The position numbers and the translations under genes are program-made. The notes beneath the pieces are model-generated. The model ran no database searches and was not told where the DNA came from. It saw only the letters and a list, made by a program, of their open reading frames with translations. From positions 1-56,716 of IMG/VR virus record IMGVR_UViG_3300010403_000026: a DNA stretch of 56,716 nucleotides. One strand, written 5' to 3'. The DNA is from a virus. The stretch's first letter is position 1. Each line of letters starts with the position of its first letter. This document shows, one piece after another, positions 2,290 to 51,958 of the stretch.

Positions 2290-2814
2290 CTAGAGCCAAA
2301 CGCTCGCCTGAAAGTAATACTGCGTCCCTACCTGGCTGACCATCGTGAACGTACCGGCCGGGACAGAGTCGGCTGGGTCAATCTGAAGCTGGATGGCGGA
2401 GACTCTGGACGACGGTCCCGGATAGCCCTGTTTATACAAGTCTACTTGGTAGTTGCTTCCCGTGCCAGACACGATGACGCCGATGATCTGTCCCTGGACC
2501 TGCCTCTGGGAGATCAGGTTCGAGAGATCGGACCCATCGGACTCCGACCCGGAGAGCAGGCCAAGGTCGTCGTAGGTCAACTCTTTCGACTGGTCGTTGC
2601 TCTCCAGCGCGAGCAATCCATCCGTCGAGGAAGGCTGAAGGCGGTCGATGATCTTCAGCGGGGGGCGTCCAGTCTGCTTGACGATCTCCAGTCCCCCTTC
2701 GATGCGGACCGGAATATTGGACGTGAAGAGGGCGTAGAGTTCCTTCGCAAGTTCATCAATGCTCTTCCAGTTTGTCCGCATCAGGCGGTTGGAGGCTTCG
2801 CCGAAGAGGCTCAT
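2290..2814 (-). CDS. Tail-region structural protein, unknown family
   Basis: A 174-aa protein that starts [18 protein letters not shown] and overlaps the stop of the large tail gene by 4 nt (ATGA). The N-terminal 40 residues are helical; the C-terminal half (from about residue 105) is beta-rich, with alternating hydrophobics and GTFTMVSQVGTQYYFQASV at the end. It is tightly coupled to the tail gene, so a tail or connector component is likely. The family is not recognised. Confidence 0.65.
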   Translation of the reverse strand: MSLFGEASNRLMRTNWKSIDELAKELYALFTSNIPVRIEGGLEIVKQTGRPPLKIIDRLQPSSTDGLLALESNDQSKELTYDDLGLLSGSESDGSDLSNLISQRQVQGQIIGVIVSGTGSNYQVDLYKQGYPGPSSRVSAIQLQIDPADSVPAGTFTMVSQVGTQYYFQASVWL

Positions 2815-5546
2815 TTCTCGACGCCCTCAAGTCCCAATCTGAATATGGTTACTGGGTCCGGACCCGTGACTCCCCGAAGCTCCAGTGTAACGCGCCGGAT
2901 GCCGTCCATTGATTCCTCCCTCCGTCCGGAGAGGGCTTTCTTCGCATACCCGATTCGTTTCGAGAGCGCGACCACCATGTCGGGGTCGCCCCTCTGGGTT
3001 GCGACCTCCATTTCCTGAGCGCCCGTCTGGTCGATCCCCATGTTCTCCGGGTCTTCATCCTGATCGACGAATCTTCGCATGTCGAACGTCATGTCGGACT
3101 TGGTGGGGATGAACGACACGTCGAAGCTCCTCTGCTGGTCGGCTTCGCTCATAGCCAGTTGGTGCGACCCTCCTGACCACACCCACGGGACGCCCCCGAT
3201 CTGGTACTTGGAGGTGTCGTCCGGAACGATCATCCACGGCCACGAGAAGGTGAGCTTCGTTGAAGTCCTCGCGGAAACGATCCGCGTCTGTCCCTTCCCT
3301 CTGCCGGAGGTGATCGTCACCGGAAGTCCGATGGTATCCGCGAGGAAAGAGGCGCTTGAGTCCGTGAGGGACGAGAATCCACCGGAGGTCGCGGTCCCAC
3401 GCTCCGATCCCCCGGTCGCGCCGTCCAGTTGCCCAACCCAATAGGCGAGCACTTCACGGAACTGTGAGCCAAGGTAGCACTGCTCAGTTCCGGACCCCCA
3501 TCCTCCCGATTGGGGGCCGATGCGCCCCACGCAGGAAGCTCCCACGGGGACTTTGAATTCCTCGATCCACCAGCGCTTCTTCAGGTACGAGAAGCACAGC
3601 GCATGACGAGGGAGGTAGTCCCCGGAGAGAGCGACGAACCACCGGATTACCCCCTGAGTCTGGTAGTGCAAGCAGTGGAAGAATCTCTGCGAGGACCAGT
3701 TGATCTGGTGAAGGGAATTCGGGTCGGAGCGGAAGACGCTCTGGATCGCATCCGAGACCGCCCCTCCACCTTCACCGCCGTCGAACAAGTGAACCCCCTG
3801 CTCATCCAGCATGTAGACCCCATCGTCCGTGATCGCCCAACACCTGTTGTTGATGCAGCCACGGAGTTTCGCCATGTAGACCACCCCGTCTCTTGCAGGG
3901 TTGGTCTGGAAGGTCAGACGGTGGATGTGCCGCCTTTCGAGGAGGAACACGAAGGAGCGGTACGAGAACCCTCCCGTGAAGTCGTCACCGTCTTCTTCGA
4001 TGGAAAGCCCGTTCGTGACCGGGACGGCTTCCGCGAGTCCGGCCTCCGAGTAGTAGCAGATGCGGCGCTCCGCAGGGGCAGGACGGATGGAGTAGAAGGA
4101 ATAAGTGGAAGTCGCGCCACCGTAGGCTTCCGTCAGCGTCAGCGTTGACCCAGAAGCGCTCGCGATCTCGTAGGGCTTGGGAGCGCCGTCGATGTAGATG
4201 AAGCGATTCGCGAACGTAACGGGCCAACTGGCGTTGATGGCCGTGACGGTCGTGGACCCGTTCGTGACCGCGACGTTTCCTTCCGAGTAGGGGACTTCCC
4301 CGAAGTAGAACATCCGGTCCTGATGGGCGACCGGGAAGCATTTCCAGTTCGGGGGGACGGTGTAGATGTTGACAATATCGTTCCCCTCCACGTCGAAGAA
4401 GGGGACCGCTTCCTGCGCGGACAATTGGGAGTCCGAACGGGTCGAAGTGGCCGTAGTCGTCAACAAAGAAGTCGTGTCCACATCCACGTAGAAGGTCGTC
4501 GCCTGCCCATCGGTGTTCCGGAGAATCTGCCTTCTGACTACTTTGGGTTCGACGGGAACAGGGAAGCCCGTGTAGGTGATCGTCAGACACCCGGAGGTCC
4601 AGATCGCATTGGGGCTTGGCGAAAAGGCGAAGATTCCCGAAGAGCCATTGAGGTTGAAGCGATTCTGGTCCAGAACCGTGACTTCCCACGTCCCGTTGGC
4701 GTCCTCGTTCCCCAGGACTCCGGAGACCTTGACGATCAGGCCCGTCGTCAGCCCGTGTCCGTTGGACGTGATGGTGATCGGGGTCGTGGGAGAAGCATCG
4801 GTGATAATCCCCGTCGTCCCCGTGGTGATGATTCCGCCGCTGACGTAGTTGGCGTTTCCACCGCTCGTCTGGTTGATGGCGAACGTCGTCCCCGAAGGGA
4901 CGGTGAGGACAGTCCACGTTCCGTTGGCGTCCGTGTTCCCCACGACCCCCGTGATGACCACCGTGGCCCCGACGTTGATGAGGTGAGCGACCGCCGTCGT
5001 GATCGTGATCGGAATCTGGAGCTTCCACGTCGCTGAATTGTTGACGTAGACGCCGTTGCTCGTTGAACCGTTGAGCCTGAACTGGGTGGCGGTGACGACC
5101 GTGATCGTCCACGTCCCGTTCATCGCCGTGTCCCCAAGAGCGCCCGTGATCTTCAGAATGTCGTTCGTGGCCCTTCCATGAGGGGTGGCCGTATTGCAGA
5201 CGATGGGGGTTCCACCCGCCCCGGTCGGAGAGGAGAGGACGGTCCCGGAAGCTGAGTTGGAGGCGTTCGTGACCTGAATGGTCCTCCCCCCACGGGCGTC
5301 GAGCTGAGCCGACACGGGGGAGAGGTTGGAGAAGTTGCCGAAGCGGTCAACGAATCTGGAGTACGCGAAGTAGCTGCCGATGATGTTCCCGATCCCGGAA
5401 CCACTCATCGTCAGCGCCGTCAGTGGAGGAAGAACGCCAGCCGGTTCAGCTTGCGCTGACTGCCCGTCCCACCTGAGCGAATTTTCTATTCCATTGCAAA
5501 TAAGAAGGATATTTGATCCCGGCTCTAACGCAAAATTATCAGGCAT
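2811..5546 (-). CDS. Large tail protein with repeated beta domains
   Basis: About 911 aa from the ATG at 5546 (a GTG at 5555 is also in frame). Residues about 110-310 hold three copies of a beta unit with the pattern HGL-TG-V-I-G-NANGTW-V-V-F-LNG, resembling the FCCH-like units seen in phage tail proteins. The rest is beta-rich with a Trp/Tyr-rich region near the middle. This is the longest virion gene. Its first 20 or so codons are a recoded copy: the original 5' end lies at 6281-6346, upstream of the inserted HNH gene, whose stop overlaps this start. Domains of the sort found at 8607-8786 normally precede this type of protein. Confidence 0.8.
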
Positions 5547-6174
5547 TTTGGCCACGAATCTTTCTGGGCGGCTTGGTTAGCGCATCTTCAACGCTCCATC
5601 CACGGTCAAGCCTTTTAACAACCATCAAGCTATTCACCCTCATCCTCTCAGCGAACATCGAAACGCATCCTCGCTCACCACGAAACTCAATGATCCGATT
5701 AGACCTTGTGTTCCTAGCTTGCTCTTTTGGAGTCGCCCACCGGCAGTTGTCAGGCTCGTAGTTTCCATTATTGTCGATTCGGTCAATCGAATGAACGCTA
5801 GAAGGCATCGGCCCCATATCGTCATAGAAGTTTTGGAAAACAAGCCATCGCTCACAAACCGTGATTCCTCTGCCTCCATAACGTGGCCACGATGGGGAGT
5901 TGGGGTTTAAGCACCGCGATTTCATCGCATTCCAAGAGTAGTATTCCTTTTGGCCGTACATGCCGTGCGTTGTCGGAATTTCTCTTTGTCTTTCTCGGTG
6001 GAGGCATCCGCAGCTTCTTGTTTTTGAAAGAAGAAGAACTTCTTTTTCGGTTCCGCAGGCGCACCGACAAAGCCAATAAATTCGGTGCTTCCCGCTGTGA
6101 AATGCTTTTCTTGCGATTCTGAGAACTGTTAACCTTCCAACAACGTCACCTGTCCGGTCGATAAATCTGCCCAT
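5539..6174 (-). CDS. HNH homing endonuclease inserted in the tail gene
   Basis: A 211-aa protein starting [17 protein letters not shown] with an AAGG ribosome site. An N-terminal zinc ribbon (CRCACG, then SCGC) is followed by the HNH core typical of phage homing enzymes: [41 protein letters not shown] and EQARN-RSN. The C-terminus ([10 protein letters not shown]) is a DNA-recognition tail found in this group. It cuts DNA at a specific site and spreads by homing. It separates the dead 5' end of the tail gene (6281-6346) from the working gene, and its last codons overlap the new start. A longer frame to 6573 exists but lies over the upstream genes and is not believed. Confidence 0.9.
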
Positions 6175-6280
6175 GTTGTGTACCTTGGCGGGCCAACCCG
6201 AACAGCCGCGAGGCGGTACACTGCCAAGCGGCCATTCGGATTTTCGATGGATCATGACTTCCACCGTTCCCAATTGGATT

Positions 6281-6346
6281 TTACGAAATGCCGTTGCAGA
6301 TGAGCAGGATGTTGGACCCGGATTCAAGCGCGAAATTATCGGGGAT
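6281..6346 (-). pseudogene. Orphaned 5' end of the tail gene
   Basis: Reading from 6346 gives (ATC)[19 protein letters not shown] and then Ser-stop. The working tail gene begins [20 protein letters not shown], so 18 of 19 residues after the first codon agree. Thirteen of those 18 are spelled with a different synonymous codon (for example TTC/TTT, CTT/TTA, GGG/GGA, AAC/AAT, CTC/CTT). The initiator is ATC here, with an in-frame stop two codons upstream, so the remnant is dead. It lies just after the stop of the 220-aa gene, where the native start would be expected. Confidence 0.85.
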
Positions 6347-6349
6347 ACG

Positions 6350-7012
6350 TCACCTCCCGTACCGGCCTTCGGCGATCTGAGCGGAGATGCGACTGGTGTC
6401 TCGCTGAACGACGCCGACGAAGGTTTGCGTCTTGGCGAAATCGTTGGCTGATCGCACTGAGGACTGGGAGAAAATGACGGTCTCGCACCCGTCTTCGACC
6501 GGGCCGCTGTAGTACACGGTGATTTCGCAAAAATCCACCCACGCCTCAACGGGGTCGGTGCCGCTGTTTTCAAGAACGAGCAGGAGCGAACCGAAGTCGT
6601 CGCTGTTCACGACATCGACATCAATCGACGGTTCGCTCCAGAGGTCGGAGGAATTTCCGTAGACATAGGTCGTCTGAGTCGTGGTCCAGATTGCCGGGTC
6701 AGCGCCAATCGACCCCGCTACGGAGACTCCCGGACCAATAGTCAGAAAGACCCCTTGATCCTTTACTTCCCCGGCCTCGGTGTTTTTCCGCCTCGTCCAT
6801 GCGATTTCGACTCCACGGATCATCGACCCGTCAGGAATCTCGAAGCCGAAGGCGCGTGCCTCAAGGTAATTCGTCTGATCGGACGCCACCATGTCCGCAA
6901 CGGCGTAGTTGTGGTCGTCGGAAAGGATGTTGGACGTGTTGGTCCAGTCAACGGTCCCTCCACCGGCAGGCTCGTTGTCGGCAAACGTCGGCGAAGAGGT
7001 GACAGATGCCAC
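6350..7012 (-). CDS. Tail-region structural protein
   Basis: A 220-aa protein starting [19 protein letters not shown]. It has alternating beta-strand patterns throughout and no transmembrane or catalytic motif. The middle (about residues 60-160) has the look of a carbohydrate-binding-type jelly roll ([18 protein letters not shown], then [13 protein letters not shown]). The position between small tail genes and the large tail gene suggests a tail fibre or tip part. Its stop lies directly before the orphaned tail-gene start. Confidence 0.65.
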
Positions 7013-8098: not shown

Positions 8099-8605
8099 CT
8101 ACACCACGCAAACGGAGAACGTCTGTACGTAGGCCGTGCCGCTGATCGCGTAGCTCAGATGCACGCTGTAGTTCTGCCCCGCGTCGAGTCCTTTAGCGGC
8201 CGAGCATTCGAGGGCCATGTTGTAGAACCCCGTGACCGTGAATGCCCCACCAGCCGTGTAGACCCCACCGGCTGAAACTGCGACCGAGAAGGTGTTGTCG
8301 TCGATCCGAGTGACGACCCAGGTTCCGTTGACCCCCGTCGAGCCTCCCACGCCGGAGATCGTGACCCTCATCCCGGTTTGAAGCCCGTGGGAATTGCAGG
8401 TGATGACCGCTGGATTGGTGTTTGTGACCCCGGTGATGACCCCGGTGTGCTTGTTCGTCACCGTCCCACCGGCGTTCGCGAGCAGCCCGGAGGCCCCGTA
8501 GACTCTCCACGTAGGAAGGGCGTCCGCTGCCGTGGGGGTGTCGCCGACCCGTGTCTGCACTCCGGCGTTCAGGGTGTCGTCGAGTTCTACCAGACCTAGA
8601 AACAC
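8099..8605 (-). CDS. Tail-region protein with one FCCH-like beta unit
   Basis: A 168-aa protein starting with GTG (VFLGLVELDD). Residues about 60-115 contain one copy of the beta unit that occurs three times in the large tail protein (ITCNSHGLQTGMRVTISGV, then VNGTWVVTRIDDNTF). The shared unit suggests that both belong to the same virion structure. The start lies just after the stop of the 59-aa gene. Confidence 0.68.
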   Translation of the reverse strand: MFLGLVELDDTLNAGVQTRVGDTPTAADALPTWRVYGASGLLANAGGTVTNKHTGVITGVTNTNPAVITCNSHGLQTGMRVTISGVGGSTGVNGTWVVTRIDDNTFSVAVSAGGVYTAGGAFTVTGFYNMALECSAAKGLDAGQNYSVHLSYAISGTAYVQTFSVCVV

Positions 8606-8606
8606 G

Positions 8607-8786
8607 TCATCCGTCCTCGAATGAAACTCTCTTGTAGCCCTTTCTGGTGCTCATCTGCCCCAGCACGCAACTGACGATGTTGACCTGATTGTCCGCCGTT
8701 CCATCCGGAATGTCCTCGGAGTCGTAGTCGTCAAGAAGGCCTGGGAAATCACGTATGTCCAGCCGTGTTTCAGCAGGTGAAGCCAT
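8607..8786 (-). CDS. 59-aa protein like the N-terminus of a tail protein
   Basis: Not a shadow frame: ATG at 8786, 59 codons and a TGA at 8607-8609. It contains IRDFPGLLDDYDSEDIPDG, then NQVNIVSCVLGQMSTRKGYKR. The pattern of a D-F-GL start, a PDG element, a conserved Asn-Val and a final R-KGY is typical of the N-terminus of large phage tail proteins, where it is followed by domains like those at 2811-5546. Here it stands alone, about 3 kb upstream of the large tail gene. It may be a split-off domain that works in trans. Confidence 0.65.
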   Translation of the reverse strand: MASPAETRLDIRDFPGLLDDYDSEDIPDGTADNQVNIVSCVLGQMSTRKGYKRVSFEDG

Positions 8787-8789
8787 AGG

Positions 8790-9446
8790 TCACGTCGAGG
8801 GAAACATATCGCCCGATGGCACGGAAAGGGCCTCTTCGAGAGGCCATCCGTTTCTCAGTCTTGCGCCAAGGGTCCCTTGCTTTATTCCAAGCCGCTCAGC
8901 CCATTCGGCAAGGCAGGCTGTTTGACCCATAAAAGTAATCATTTTGTTGCTGCGTCGGTTTCGACAGTTATCTTTTCTCGTTATCCACTGACAATTTTCT
9001 GGCGTGTAGTCTCCGCCGTTGTCCTTCCGGTCTATCTCGTGGTCTTCCGTTGGAGGCTTACCCATGTCGGCTAGGAAATTTTGAAATCCAGTTCCCTTCT
9101 CCAGCCACCGATCACAGACCTTGATTCCTCGACCGCCGTAATTCTCATAATACTTCTGCGCTGGGTAGTAGCACCTTTTCCTCATCGACAGCCATATTTT
9201 GTAAATTCGCGAACTAGACATTCCGTGGGTTTTTGTTGGCCCTATTCCAACGGCGGCGCACCCGCAACTTTTTGAATGTCCGCTCCGAAGGTTACAGGTT
9301 CCAATTACTCTCTCGGTTCCACAGTCGCATCGACAAAGCCATTGAGAAATCTTCGCCTTTCTTTTGCCGACCTCTTTTATGCCAGCCAAACAAATAACTG
9401 TCCAAAGACCAAATCTCAGTCCGGCGATGTTTTTTAGTCTGCTCAT
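8790..9446 (-). CDS. HNH homing endonuclease at the 3' end of the 385-aa gene
   Basis: A 218-aa protein from the ATG at 9446 (MSRLKNIAGLRFGLWTV). It has the N-terminal zinc ribbon (CRCDCG, SCGC), the HNH core (RCYYP, YGGRGIKVCDRW, F-NFLADMG, EIDRKDNGGDYTPENCQW) and the tail WPLEEALSVP. It is a relative of the nuclease at 5539-6174. The last residues (PSGDMFPST) may be read from the native 3' end of the upstream gene, whose present end is PSGPDVD. A strong promoter lies directly before it; no clear ribosome site is present, so a leaderless message is possible. Confidence 0.9.
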   Translation of the reverse strand: MSRLKNIAGLRFGLWTVICLAGIKEVGKRKAKISQWLCRCDCGTERVIGTCNLRSGHSKSCGCAAVGIGPTKTHGMSSSRIYKIWLSMRKRCYYPAQKYYENYGGRGIKVCDRWLEKGTGFQNFLADMGKPPTEDHEIDRKDNGGDYTPENCQWITRKDNCRNRRSNKMITFMGQTACLAEWAERLGIKQGTLGARLRNGWPLEEALSVPSGDMFPST

Positions 9447-9453
9447 GCCGCTT

Positions 9454-9482
9454 ATTGTAAGCGAAATTAGCAGAGGTGCCAA
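9454..9482 (-). promoter_or_regulatory. Sigma70-type promoter for the HNH gene
   Basis: On the minus strand TTGGCA and TACAAT are separated by 17 nt. The -10 box ends 7 nt before the HNH start ATG, so transcription would begin at about the start codon. The promoter lies between the stop of the 385-aa gene and the endonuclease. Confidence 0.6.
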
Positions 9483-9484
9483 CA

Positions 9485-10642
9485 CTAGTCTACATCTGGT
9501 CCTGATGGCATGTCACTGAATCGAAGCCGGTAAGCCACCATCCCGCCCGCGACCCGCAAGGACATCGACCGCGAGTCCGCCTCACGGGCGCGAGCGTAGG
9601 ACAACTGGTAATCGGAGTCTTCCACGTTCAACGCCTTCATGCGCTTGTAGGAGCGGAGTTGTCGTTCGCACTCCCTCCAGAACGCGGTCATGAACGCCCC
9701 TTCTTCGAGGTCCATGGGGTCGCTGATGCGGTACTTGACGTTCGTCAGTGTTTCGGGGAGAACTTCATCGACTTCCAAGGCACCAGCCGCGCTCACGCTC
9801 GTCACGACCCGCTCGTAAGCATACGGATAAGCGCCCTCTCGTCCCGTGGGGGCGTACTTCTCACCTGTGGCGGCGAAGCGGATCACGGCCCCGATATGCT
9901 TCGAGGCCCACGCGGTCGATGACCCGGAGACCGAGGCGGACCCGTTGCTGACCGACACAACACCGGACGAGTAGTCCATGATGTTCAACTGGCGCGGTCG
10001 TCGATGGTAGATGAAGTCAAACGAGTAGGCTTGATCGGGCCGTGGGTGAAAGCGGCAGGCGAGAACCCCGAAGTAGTTCGGGTCCGCCGTGACGGCAAAC
10101 CGAGAAGGCTTGGCTGGACCGGCCCGCAACTGCTGGGGGGATAGCCAGTCCGAGTTCGTGACCTGAAGGACCAGTTGGCCTCCCGTCAGCTCCAGCATGT
10201 CGAAGCCTTTGAGGTAGTCACAGGGCATCGGGAAGGTGTCGCGGTAGATTTCAAAACTGGTTGCGGTCGCGATGTCCTCTCCTGGGTTCGACGATTGGGA
10301 GAGGACGAGGACCGTCGCGCTTGTTCGAGAAGCAACCTCGTAGGGAATCTGATTGATAATGACCGACCCGTAAGCCGCCCAGGTAGGCCACGTCCCTCCG
10401 GAGAGCGTCAGTTCCCTCGTGGAGTTGACGTAAGTCACCGTCCCGGTGTCGTATGGTTCCGAGGTGGTGATCCGGTGCCGCGCGAAGTAGTACGACCAGT
10501 CGTGAGAAGACGTGAATTCCCGGTAGCCATTGACGACCGCTCTCTGGGCGTCGGTGAGGGTCCGCTGCTGGGCGTCACCACCCGCGTAGTCGATGAGATA
10601 GCTCACCGCGTCGTGGTACGTCGTTAATTGGATGACCGACAT
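9485..10642 (-). CDS. Head-tail adaptor or tail-tube-type protein
   Basis: A 385-aa protein starting MSVIQLTTYHDAVSYLIDYAG. The first 60 residues are helical, as in head-completion or adaptor proteins, followed by beta-rich parts with aromatic-rich strands (residues 140-280) and a helical C-terminal part (MTAFWRECERQLRSYKRMKA). Similar proteins in short-tailed phages sit between connector and tail genes, which fits its position. The last codons before the TAG use AT-richer synonyms (AGT, TCA, GGA, GTA) and may be a recoded 3' end brought by the following HNH element. Confidence 0.65.
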   Translation of the reverse strand: MSVIQLTTYHDAVSYLIDYAGGDAQQRTLTDAQRAVVNGYREFTSSHDWSYYFARHRITTSEPYDTGTVTYVNSTRELTLSGGTWPTWAAYGSVIINQIPYEVASRTSATVLVLSQSSNPGEDIATATSFEIYRDTFPMPCDYLKGFDMLELTGGQLVLQVTNSDWLSPQQLRAGPAKPSRFAVTADPNYFGVLACRFHPRPDQAYSFDFIYHRRPRQLNIMDYSSGVVSVSNGSASVSGSSTAWASKHIGAVIRFAATGEKYAPTGREGAYPYAYERVVTSVSAAGALEVDEVLPETLTNVKYRISDPMDLEEGAFMTAFWRECERQLRSYKRMKALNVEDSDYQLSYARAREADSRSMSLRVAGGMVAYRLRFSDMPSGPDVD

Positions 10643-13914: not shown

Positions 13915-14445
13915 TCAACCTTCCTGAATCTTCAGCCATCCCCAATGCTCGCCACGATAAATCCGACTTACCTGAGTCTGCCCGATGCCCATCTCGACGG
14001 CGACTTTATCTTGAGACATCCCACTGGCAAGCAGCTTCTTGACTCGAATCACCTGCTCTTCGCTCAACTTATTTTTAGGGTTCTTGGTTCCACGCGAAGT
14101 TTTCCCGTCACGGATTTTATCTTCGCCGTTGTTCTTTTCTCTCGTGCCCCAGCACAGGTTCGACACTCGGTTGTCTTGTTGACCACCAACTCCGTGGCAC
14201 GCTTCCATTCCCTCTGGCCTTGGGCAAACGAAGGCTTCTAGTACAAGAGTGTGAATCATTCTCATCCCGGCAAACGATTCGTTTTTCAAATACGCGCGAT
14301 GGTAGCCTTGAACACTCGGATTCGGAGACAAGATTTTTGGTTTGTCCCTTTTCTTGTTCCGAGAATAGCTTCTGACTCGACCAAGATTCGACACCTCGTA
14401 ATTCGGAAAGCCAACGACCTGACGCCATTCTTCGGCTTCTTGCAT
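13915..14445 (-). CDS. HNH homing endonuclease (NUMOD4 type)
   Basis: 176 aa. The N-terminal NUMOD4 motif (EEWRQVVGFPNYEVSNLGRV) is followed by an HNH core (ACHGVGGQQDNRVSNLCWGT), then a helix-turn-helix tail (KLSEEQVIRVKKLLASGMSQ, then VSRIYRGEHWGWL). This is the classic layout of a free-standing phage homing nuclease. It has its own promoter (14472-14499) and GGAG ribosome site. Its last residues are IQEG-stop, close to the VQEG-stop of the gene upstream, which suggests that the native 3' end of that gene now serves as the end of the nuclease. Confidence 0.92.
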   Translation of the reverse strand: MQEAEEWRQVVGFPNYEVSNLGRVRSYSRNKKRDKPKILSPNPSVQGYHRAYLKNESFAGMRMIHTLVLEAFVCPRPEGMEACHGVGGQQDNRVSNLCWGTREKNNGEDKIRDGKTSRGTKNPKNKLSEEQVIRVKKLLASGMSQDKVAVEMGIGQTQVSRIYRGEHWGWLKIQEG

Positions 14446-32107: not shown

Positions 32108-32299
32108 CTAGAGCCGGATGTGGATGTTGGTCAGGCGGTTTGGTCCATTGATGGGGATGTTGAGATCGATGCCATCGAAATGGTCGTCGTAGATGAAGAG
32201 TTCCCGGTGCCAGTTTGAGGAAGGGATGCCGAAGATGGTGATGATCTGAACGTGGATGGCAGGGACTTCACGTTCCTCAAGGCGCTCAAGAGACAGCAT
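32108..32299 (-). CDS. Small protein with planctomycete LERLE-REVPA start
   Basis: 63 aa starting MLSLERLEEREVPAIHVQII. The start repeats a motif common at the N-terminus of planctomycete (Gemmata-type) exported proteins, where LExLExRxVPA precedes the mature part. Its presence in a phage gene links the phage to that host lineage and hints that the product is sorted by the host. The rest is beta-rich (SNWHRELFIYDDHFDG). A GGAG site precedes the ATG, and it overlaps the previous gene by 14 nt. Confidence 0.65.
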   Translation of the reverse strand: MLSLERLEEREVPAIHVQIITIFGIPSSNWHRELFIYDDHFDGIDLNIPINGPNRLTNIHIRL

Positions 32300-50625: not shown

Positions 50626-50846
50626 CCACCAACAAGATCGACGTGATGGAAATGCAAGTCATCGAGCCGAAAGGTCAGCGCATCCACAGCGATTTCGATG
50701 TGTACCTTTCGCCGTGGCCTGACTTCAGCCAGCTTGAGCAGTTCCTCGACGGCGCTCCGACCGACGTTCCGTGCATGGTCAGGATCACGATGCGGAAGAT
50801 GACGCAGGCAGACTTCGACGCCAGATGCGAAGGATTTGAGCTGTGA
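50622..50846 (+). CDS. Small duplicated protein, copy 1
   Basis: 74 aa, starting with GTG (VTTNKIDVMEMQVIEPKGQR). A second copy at 53051-53374 shares most residues. The fold is mixed (DFDVYLSPWPDFSQLEQFLD). GTGA overlaps on both sides. Function unknown. Confidence 0.68.
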   Translation: MTTNKIDVMEMQVIEPKGQRIHSDFDVYLSPWPDFSQLEQFLDGAPTDVPCMVRITMRKMTQADFDARCEGFEL

Positions 50847-51958
50847 CCGACTCCCAATTCCTTGAAACGATCCTCGCCGAGCCTGAGAACGACGCGCCGC
50901 GATTAGCCTACGCTGATTGGCTGGTCGAGAACTGCCCGCTGGGCGCTGAGGGGCAGCAGTGGACGGACAGGGCGGAATTCATTCGCGTGCAATGCGAACT
51001 AGCAGACTGTGCAGCCAGAGAGGTTGAACTGTTCAACGACGATGTTGAGTGGAAGGACTGCGAGGGCGTGTCGGCCAATTGGTGCCCGAACTGCGGCGAC
51101 TGCTGTTGCAAGAATCCAGAGCAGTCGAAGAACGACCACGATTGCCCGTTGCATAGCTCAGAAAGCCCACACGCCCAGCACCATATTTTACAGCGCAGGG
51201 TCAGCACCCTCCGTCGCCGCGAGCGTGAACTGCTGTCAGCAGTCAGCACGGAGACGTGCCCACGATGCAAGGGCAGGAAAACAGTCACGGAGCAAAGGTC
51301 ATATCGCATTGAATCGTCAGGCTGCGGTGAATGCCTTGCAAGTGGCGTCGTGCAGGTGAGTAATTGTGTGCGTTGGGCCGGGAAGCTGGGCGGACGCAAT
51401 GCCAATCATACCAACCCATGCCCAAACCAAGACGGATGGCACGGCTTCTGGTCGGCTGACGTGATGCGCGGCGCTGGCGAAGAGCTTGTGATGTTTCGCT
51501 TCGTCCGTGGCTTCGTCGGCGTGGTGTCGCTGTCGTGTGCCGCCCTCGTCGGGGACGTTTGCCCACGATGCAGCGAAGGCAGGCGGCAATGGCAGAACGG
51601 AATGAACTTCTACACTTGCCCAACATGCAAAACGACTGCTGGCCGCGTTAACTCCCTCGCGGGCGAACTGTCACGGCTGCCACTGACAGGGGTGCAGGTA
51701 AGCGGCAAGAGACCATACGATGCAACGGTCGAGAATATGGCGTTTGGTTTGTTCGATGAAGCCTTTCGTCCTGACGGAGATAATGATCCAGAAAGCAACC
51801 TGCCGACCGTTCTTTTTGATGCCTTGGAAGGCGGCACGTTTAACGAAGAACTGGACCCGCAACGGTCCTTGTGGTACGCCACGTCTGCCGCTGCGACTGA
51901 TGCCCTGGAGCGGGCGGCGCTGCTGCTGGTGAGGAAACGAATGGAGGTGATGGCATGA
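50843..51958 (+). CDS. TIGR02996-domain protein with zinc fingers
   Basis: 371 aa with a GTG start. Residues 1-60 carry TIGR02996 (VTDSQFLETILAEPENDAPR, then LAYADWLVENCPLG and FIRVQCELA). The middle holds a row of Cys groups (CPNCGDCCCKNPE, TCPRCKGRKTV, CGECL, CPRCSEGRRQW, CPTCKTTAG), at least three zinc sites, some DnaJ-like. It may bind nucleic acid or protein. A planctomycete-type gene in phage form. Confidence 0.78.
   Translation: MTDSQFLETILAEPENDAPRLAYADWLVENCPLGAEGQQWTDRAEFIRVQCELADCAAREVELFNDDVEWKDCEGVSANWCPNCGDCCCKNPEQSKNDHDCPLHSSESPHAQHHILQRRVSTLRRRERELLSAVSTETCPRCKGRKTVTEQRSYRIESSGCGECLASGVVQVSNCVRWAGKLGGRNANHTNPCPNQDGWHGFWSADVMRGAGEELVMFRFVRGFVGVVSLSCAALVGDVCPRCSEGRRQWQNGMNFYTCPTCKTTAGRVNSLAGELSRLPLTGVQVSGKRPYDATVENMAFGLFDEAFRPDGDNDPESNLPTVLFDALEGGTFNEELDPQRSLWYATSAAATDALERAALLLVRKRMEVMA

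Follow-up and report, generated by a model that had tools for sequence, protein, structure and literature searches.

How can the coding sequence of a phage tail protein be broken by a free-standing endonuclease gene, with neither splicing nor, apparently, loss of the protein? The question is raised by a locus in a 56.7-kb IMG/VR virus record (IMGVR_UViG_3300010403_000026) which has a portal-terminase-major-head-protein block, and whose whole length of 56,716 nucleotides is here termed the window. Two of its proteins, encoded at 50843–51958 and 32108–32299 (repeat-companion-type domain; LERLEERE-type start), are ones that we take to be planctomycete-like, a hint at a planctomycete host. A first-pass annotation had proposed for 5539–6352 that a tail gene has lost its native start to an HNH gene which itself brings an altered start, and the whole arrangement does lie within that interval (Table 1). 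The shared codons of the remnant run from 6343 to 6287 on the minus strand, the TAA that closes its frame (6283–6281) is two codons past the shared part (GGC ATT TCG TAA), and a search for ATG, GTG or TTG in frame before that stop found none. The ATG of the tail gene, 5546–5544, overlaps the end of the HNH gene, and the 19 codons compared with the remnant are 5543–5487; the mechanically called ORF, 2811–5555, has a GTG opening three codons before that ATG.

Table 1. Features at the interrupted tail gene, in window coordinates
Feature	Position	Strand	Remarks
Upstream gene	6350–7012	minus	Ends with TGA, just ahead of ATC 6346–6344
Remnant of the native tail-gene start	6281–6346	minus	ATC, 20 residues and stop; lies where the tail gene of relatives begins, directly past the stop of the upstream gene
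Leader, from remnant to HNH gene	6175–6280	minus	About 100 nt; holds a predicted strong hairpin
HNH homing-type endonuclease gene	5539–6174	minus	211 aa; ATG at 6174, TGA 5541–5539; phrog_374, E=1.1e-69
Element-borne replacement tail start	5478–5546	minus	22 residues and the AT-rich codons for ENS; overlaps the HNH stop
Tail gene body, native to the phage	2811–5477	minus	Homologues in six relatives, 37–45% identity; whole-gene GC3 0.77
Candidate mobile unit	5478–6286	minus	Leader, HNH gene and replacement start; drawn from its two boundaries and by analogy with the AP22 block

Are these really two versions of one gene start? As first reported, and now confirmed on the minus strand, 18 of the 19 residues are identical while 13 of the 18 shared ones are in different codons; at the nucleotide level identity is 41/57 (72%). 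Chance, already discounted on first reading, is ruled out, as the local score of the pair is 97 where mismatched upstream and downstream pairs reach at most 50–52, and the composition-corrected test described below gives p=1.4e-12 for the duplicate start. That the protein has been kept while its synonymous sites are saturated means that the downstream start is under selection as protein. Its origin is a different matter. Its codons 1–19 have a GC3 of 0.26, against 0.74 in the remnant and 0.77 over the tail gene, and a codon-level search for the place where the recoding ends, the course that the first-pass annotation had recommended, found an abrupt change at codon 21/22, where ICNGIEN with a GC3 of 0.14 gives way to SLRWDGQ with 1.0, matching the end of the remnant. 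A start that is AT-rich, and whose composition switches where the remnant ends, is foreign DNA which stops at the insertion point, within ~3 codons of it.

What did the gene look like beforehand? Searches of IMG/VR with the full tail protein and with its N-terminal 100 aa gave no relative, named phages likewise gave none, and no close relative of the window phage, with or without the element, was found in IMG/VR; the empty site has therefore to be deduced from relatives that are only ~40–45% identical. These were reached through the portal protein, which is common to 14 records (38–54% identity), six of them with the tail gene. In five of the six the beginning of the gene can be aligned, at the P codon or further in, and all five have a single tail start with no adjoining HNH gene, in most of them directly after the stop of the preceding gene. 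The starts of four have a GC3 of 0.72–0.83, like the remnant of the window and unlike its downstream start. Relatives without the HNH gene had been expected to start at the place of the remnant with remnant-like codons, and the single start at that place, with remnant-like GC3 in four, bears this out as far as distant relatives can.

Taken together with the sister cases below, the locus is, we consider with fair assurance, a splicing-free homing element of coding genes, made up of an HNH gene and a diverged copy of the terminus of its target gene. The enzyme would cut an element-less phage at a conserved coding stretch near one end of the gene, which in the window would be past the codons for NGI and just before those for LRWDG. 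Repair from a carrier would then copy in the HNH gene together with the replacement terminus, with the gene body as homology arm on one side and the cut-off native terminus as the arm on the other. The native terminus, severed in this way, would stay as a remnant beyond the HNH gene and be the arm for the next transfer, and the host protein would consist of replacement terminus plus native body. As such a hybrid gene would still yield the full protein, the insertion would be nearly harmless. A replacement differing at most synonymous sites would escape cutting, and its divergence would prevent recombination with the remnant and hence loss of the element; protection and stability are both plausible consequences of the divergence. 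From this mechanism follow intact remnants without a start or outside the protein, remnants that differ from carrier to carrier, and a foreign stretch that ends at the cut.

Is the window alone in this? Relatives of its HNH protein, which has no match in Pfam or NCBIfam and matches phrog_374 over the HNH domain in a profile search, occur in 1041 phage records, and at ~290 related HNH loci the DNA upstream of the HNH gene was compared with that downstream of it. As GC-rich frames give noise in unstructured scores, a structured, composition-corrected test anchored at true gene termini was adopted, with a cut-off of p<1e-3; survey scores of 40–53 from the unstructured comparison were no better than those of control ORFs. 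Leaving the window out of the count, starts were positive at 5/197 loci and ends at 7/203, among which L158 is doubtful for its low complexity, and control ORFs at the same loci gave 0/337 for starts and 1/389 for ends. The contrast, 12/400 tests at HNH loci against 1/726 for control ORFs, is significant (Fisher p=3e-5), though as a frequency it is a rough guide only, since L246 and L359 were reached by searches grown from L169. For most of the related HNH genes no duplicate could be detected, the insertion being a simple one between genes. For the L169 enzyme, one scan of bacterial genomes found nothing and an alignment-based scan found 68 loci.

Doubled gene starts (5′-type) are present at L169, L246/L357, L359, L389, L390 and L417, and doubled ends (3′-type) at L145, L151, L295, L299, L148 and L136, the native end in the latter being fused to the HNH gene or lying just after it. 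The arrangement thus recurs in phages and genes that are unrelated. L169, in a rumen-type phage, involves a ParB-methylase with remnant MPKNRAFDHSKYQHWIDPNEVTPYERNA and replacement KNRAFDHSKYKDWINPEKVIPYQMNA, whose first 10 shared codons differ at 9/10; L246 and L359 are further methylases, and a helicase (L389), a Mu F-like head protein (L390) and a VRR-nuclease (L417) also have doubled starts. Every remnant keeps an open frame as far as the junction. Those of L169 and L246 end with PYxxNA, and L359 has EYPNNA at the corresponding place. Each methylase element, of which there are three, has a replacement more like the remnant at its own locus than like the replacements of the other elements, and the notion of a single cargo common to methylase elements is unsupported, as the replacements match their own lineage. 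Among the empty-site relatives of L169, a clearly greater likeness to the remnant than to the replacement is confined to the nearest, L201 and L209. Inspection by eye shows a good sigma-70-like promoter right after the remnant both at L169 (~2430–2485, TTGATT-17-TATAAT) and at L246 (~1120–1185, TTTACC-17-TATAAT), with the left boundary at nearly equal distance in the two, which suggests a defined element end. The doubled ends of L145 and L151 are those of one and the same phage gene, which has an NPxxGxNxGIEGG motif; it is a recurrent 3′ target.

Was the replacement recoded so as to remove the target of the nuclease, as the first-pass annotation would have it? If so, shared codons might be expected to be rarer than random. 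Such avoidance was not found in the 12 cases pooled, where the same codon is used at 49/129 shared residues against 51.5 expected under independent codon choice. The synonymous sites are saturated and show no anti-correlation. An allele that diverged in nature long ago would be enough to give this pattern, and purposeful recoding is at most a possibility. In some of the other cases the replacement and remnant differ in amino acids too.

The most telling case is in cultured phages of Acinetobacter. In AP22 an HNH gene follows the head-morphogenesis gene, the end of which is GCKCRKCLIIDIPETI, and past the HNH gene comes (C)RCRKKLIIEIPDKPYQNN, followed by a stop. Its HNH-less relatives KEN01, QH4 and WUPSU have KLIIEIPDNPYQNN or similar as gene end, with the same downstream DNA; since they carry the native end, the AP22 remnant is that native end and the working end is the replacement. 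The junction in the AP22-type head-gene end is AATTGCCGATG. In protein the replacement end is closest to the alleles of AB1 and Acba_21 and not to its own remnant, and codon identity between AP22 and these two drops from ~80% to ~45–50% within the replacement part. Compared with AP22, the replacement end, leader and HNH gene are 98.1, 100 and 99.5% identical in IME-Ap7 and 93.8, 98.5 and 96.5% identical in YNAF, quite a contrast to the remnants of the three phages, which share only 78% and 74% identity, with a common junction TTTTTAATT-CCGATG. A near-identical block joined to different native alleles has to be a unit of transfer, comprising the replacement end and the HNH gene, and this transfer is comparative evidence for the mobility of the phage elements. 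The earlier remark that no phage case of this form was known has also to be amended, as AP22 and its relatives have this arrangement, without annotation, at the end of a gene. The AP22 locus (L441) is 8404–9210 of NC_017984, in which the unannotated region after the HNH gene holds the remnant of the native head-gene end; in relatives with the AP22 block the region is annotated as ordinary genes.

Could each such locus nevertheless be a single accident of repair, with no stable element involved? A donor with an intergenic HNH gene upstream of its own tail gene would have cut the tail gene of the window phage, one broken end would have been repaired by homology with copying of the donor start and HNH gene, and the native start would have been left behind when the other end was joined with no homology to guide it. 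In favour of this are the documented cases of one-sided illegitimate double-strand-break repair in phage T4 introns (reviewed in PMC2988022) and the many intergenic HNH genes that have no duplicate; the replacements, too, are alleles that diverged in nature to saturation at synonymous sites, and the methylase replacements that match their own lineage are accounted for. However, the AP22-group block recurs with different remnants and the same junction, and so there at least is a repeatable unit, and in the window the foreign DNA stops within the few codons noted above, where resected repair usually leaves longer conversion tracts. As a full account we regard such one-off repair as unlikely, though it may be the first origin of each element. 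Far less credible is the view that the insertion doubled the gene start in tandem on the spot and that the new copy then drifted: the two copies are indeed direct repeats flanking the HNH gene, yet drift would have decayed the unselected remnant too and all remnants are intact to the junction, the base composition of the new copy is foreign, and the alleles nearest to AP22-type replacement ends are those of AB1 and Acba_21, their own remnants being more distant. HNH genes are often within group I introns, but that the remnant is an exon 1 spliced to the gene body, with the downstream start incidental, is most improbable given that intron RNA was sought in the window and seven sister loci and none was found, that the remnant has no start codon and that the downstream start is under protein selection.

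The homing element with a replacement terminus is thus the reading to be set beside known systems. A coding gene that is broken by a homing gene and yet keeps its function is familiar from gene 60 of T4, with its bypass cassette (mobA), and from the nrdA gene of Aeh1, split by mobE. Ribosomal bypass or two-piece proteins keep function there, whereas in the window it would be the replacement terminus that does so; a gene in pieces of the nrdA-mobE type was rejected for the window, where the remnant is of ~20 codons and without a start codon. The closest known kind is instead the gene hybrids of fungal mitochondria, and the parallel with Allomyces atp6 that the first-pass annotation drew is apt. 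In Allomyces macrogynus atp6, and in Glomus atp6, atp9, cox2 and nad3, an endonuclease ORF inserted in the gene supplies a C-terminal end from elsewhere, and beyond the ORF the native terminus stays as a remnant which matches element-less relatives; the foreign copy has diverged as DNA with its protein conserved, in Glomus atp6 to 63.5% nucleotide and 91% amino acid identity (PMC3630166). The window has in common with these an endonuclease ORF in a coding gene and a foreign in-frame copy of the cut-off terminus. A native remnant, with element-less relatives that have the native terminus only, is found in the AP22 group as well, and for the window among distant relatives only, these having a single start. 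The fungal elements replace the C-terminal end, a layout that the 3′-type phage cases AP22, L145 and L295 match, whereas in the window, as in several sister cases, it is the N-terminal start that is exchanged; the fungal enzymes are LAGLIDADG or GIY-YIG and that of the window is a phrog_374 HNH. Free-standing phage HNH genes (phrog_374; the mob and seg genes of T4, PMC2988022) are likewise intron-less and between genes or at their edges, and the enzyme of the window is of the phrog_374 family, but they are usually intergenic with no duplicated terminus, where the HNH gene of the window interrupts a coding sequence and supplies what was cut off. In synthetic home-and-rescue drives (HomeR, PMC7968924) a nuclease cassette likewise attacks a gene that is essential and makes good the loss; those drives are engineered, where the phage elements draw on alleles that diverged in nature.

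No phage report of an endonuclease with a replacement terminus was found in the open-access literature. On balance we lean towards phage HNH genes comprising a widespread natural home-and-rescue class, acting at either gene end, with the replacement kept diverged by the blocking of self-cutting and of recombinational loss, and with replacement of a START not described before. An intron-less selfish gene could on this reading sit harmlessly in essential coding genes by bringing the part that it destroys, as a natural counterpart of the engineered drives. The doubled gene ends beside HNH genes would be explained, there would be a route by which chimeric structural proteins arise in phages, and AP22-type Acinetobacter phages offer a culturable system for cleavage, protection and transfer.

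The window has two further endonuclease genes. One, at 8790–9485 (minus), is also of phrog_374, is 45% identical to the first and is directly upstream of a small tail gene (8607–8786); a test for a doubled gene start or end there gave nothing significant. The other, at 13915–14445 (minus), has NUMOD4, HNH_3 and HTH domains and overlaps the start of the next gene, and a test for a doubled start was similarly not significant. In the leader of the HNH gene at the interrupted tail gene, the hairpin at ~6242–6195 (minus) has a predicted MFE of −48.7 kcal/mol (z −3.2 against shuffles), and on this folding prediction may serve to mask the HNH transcript or in its processing.
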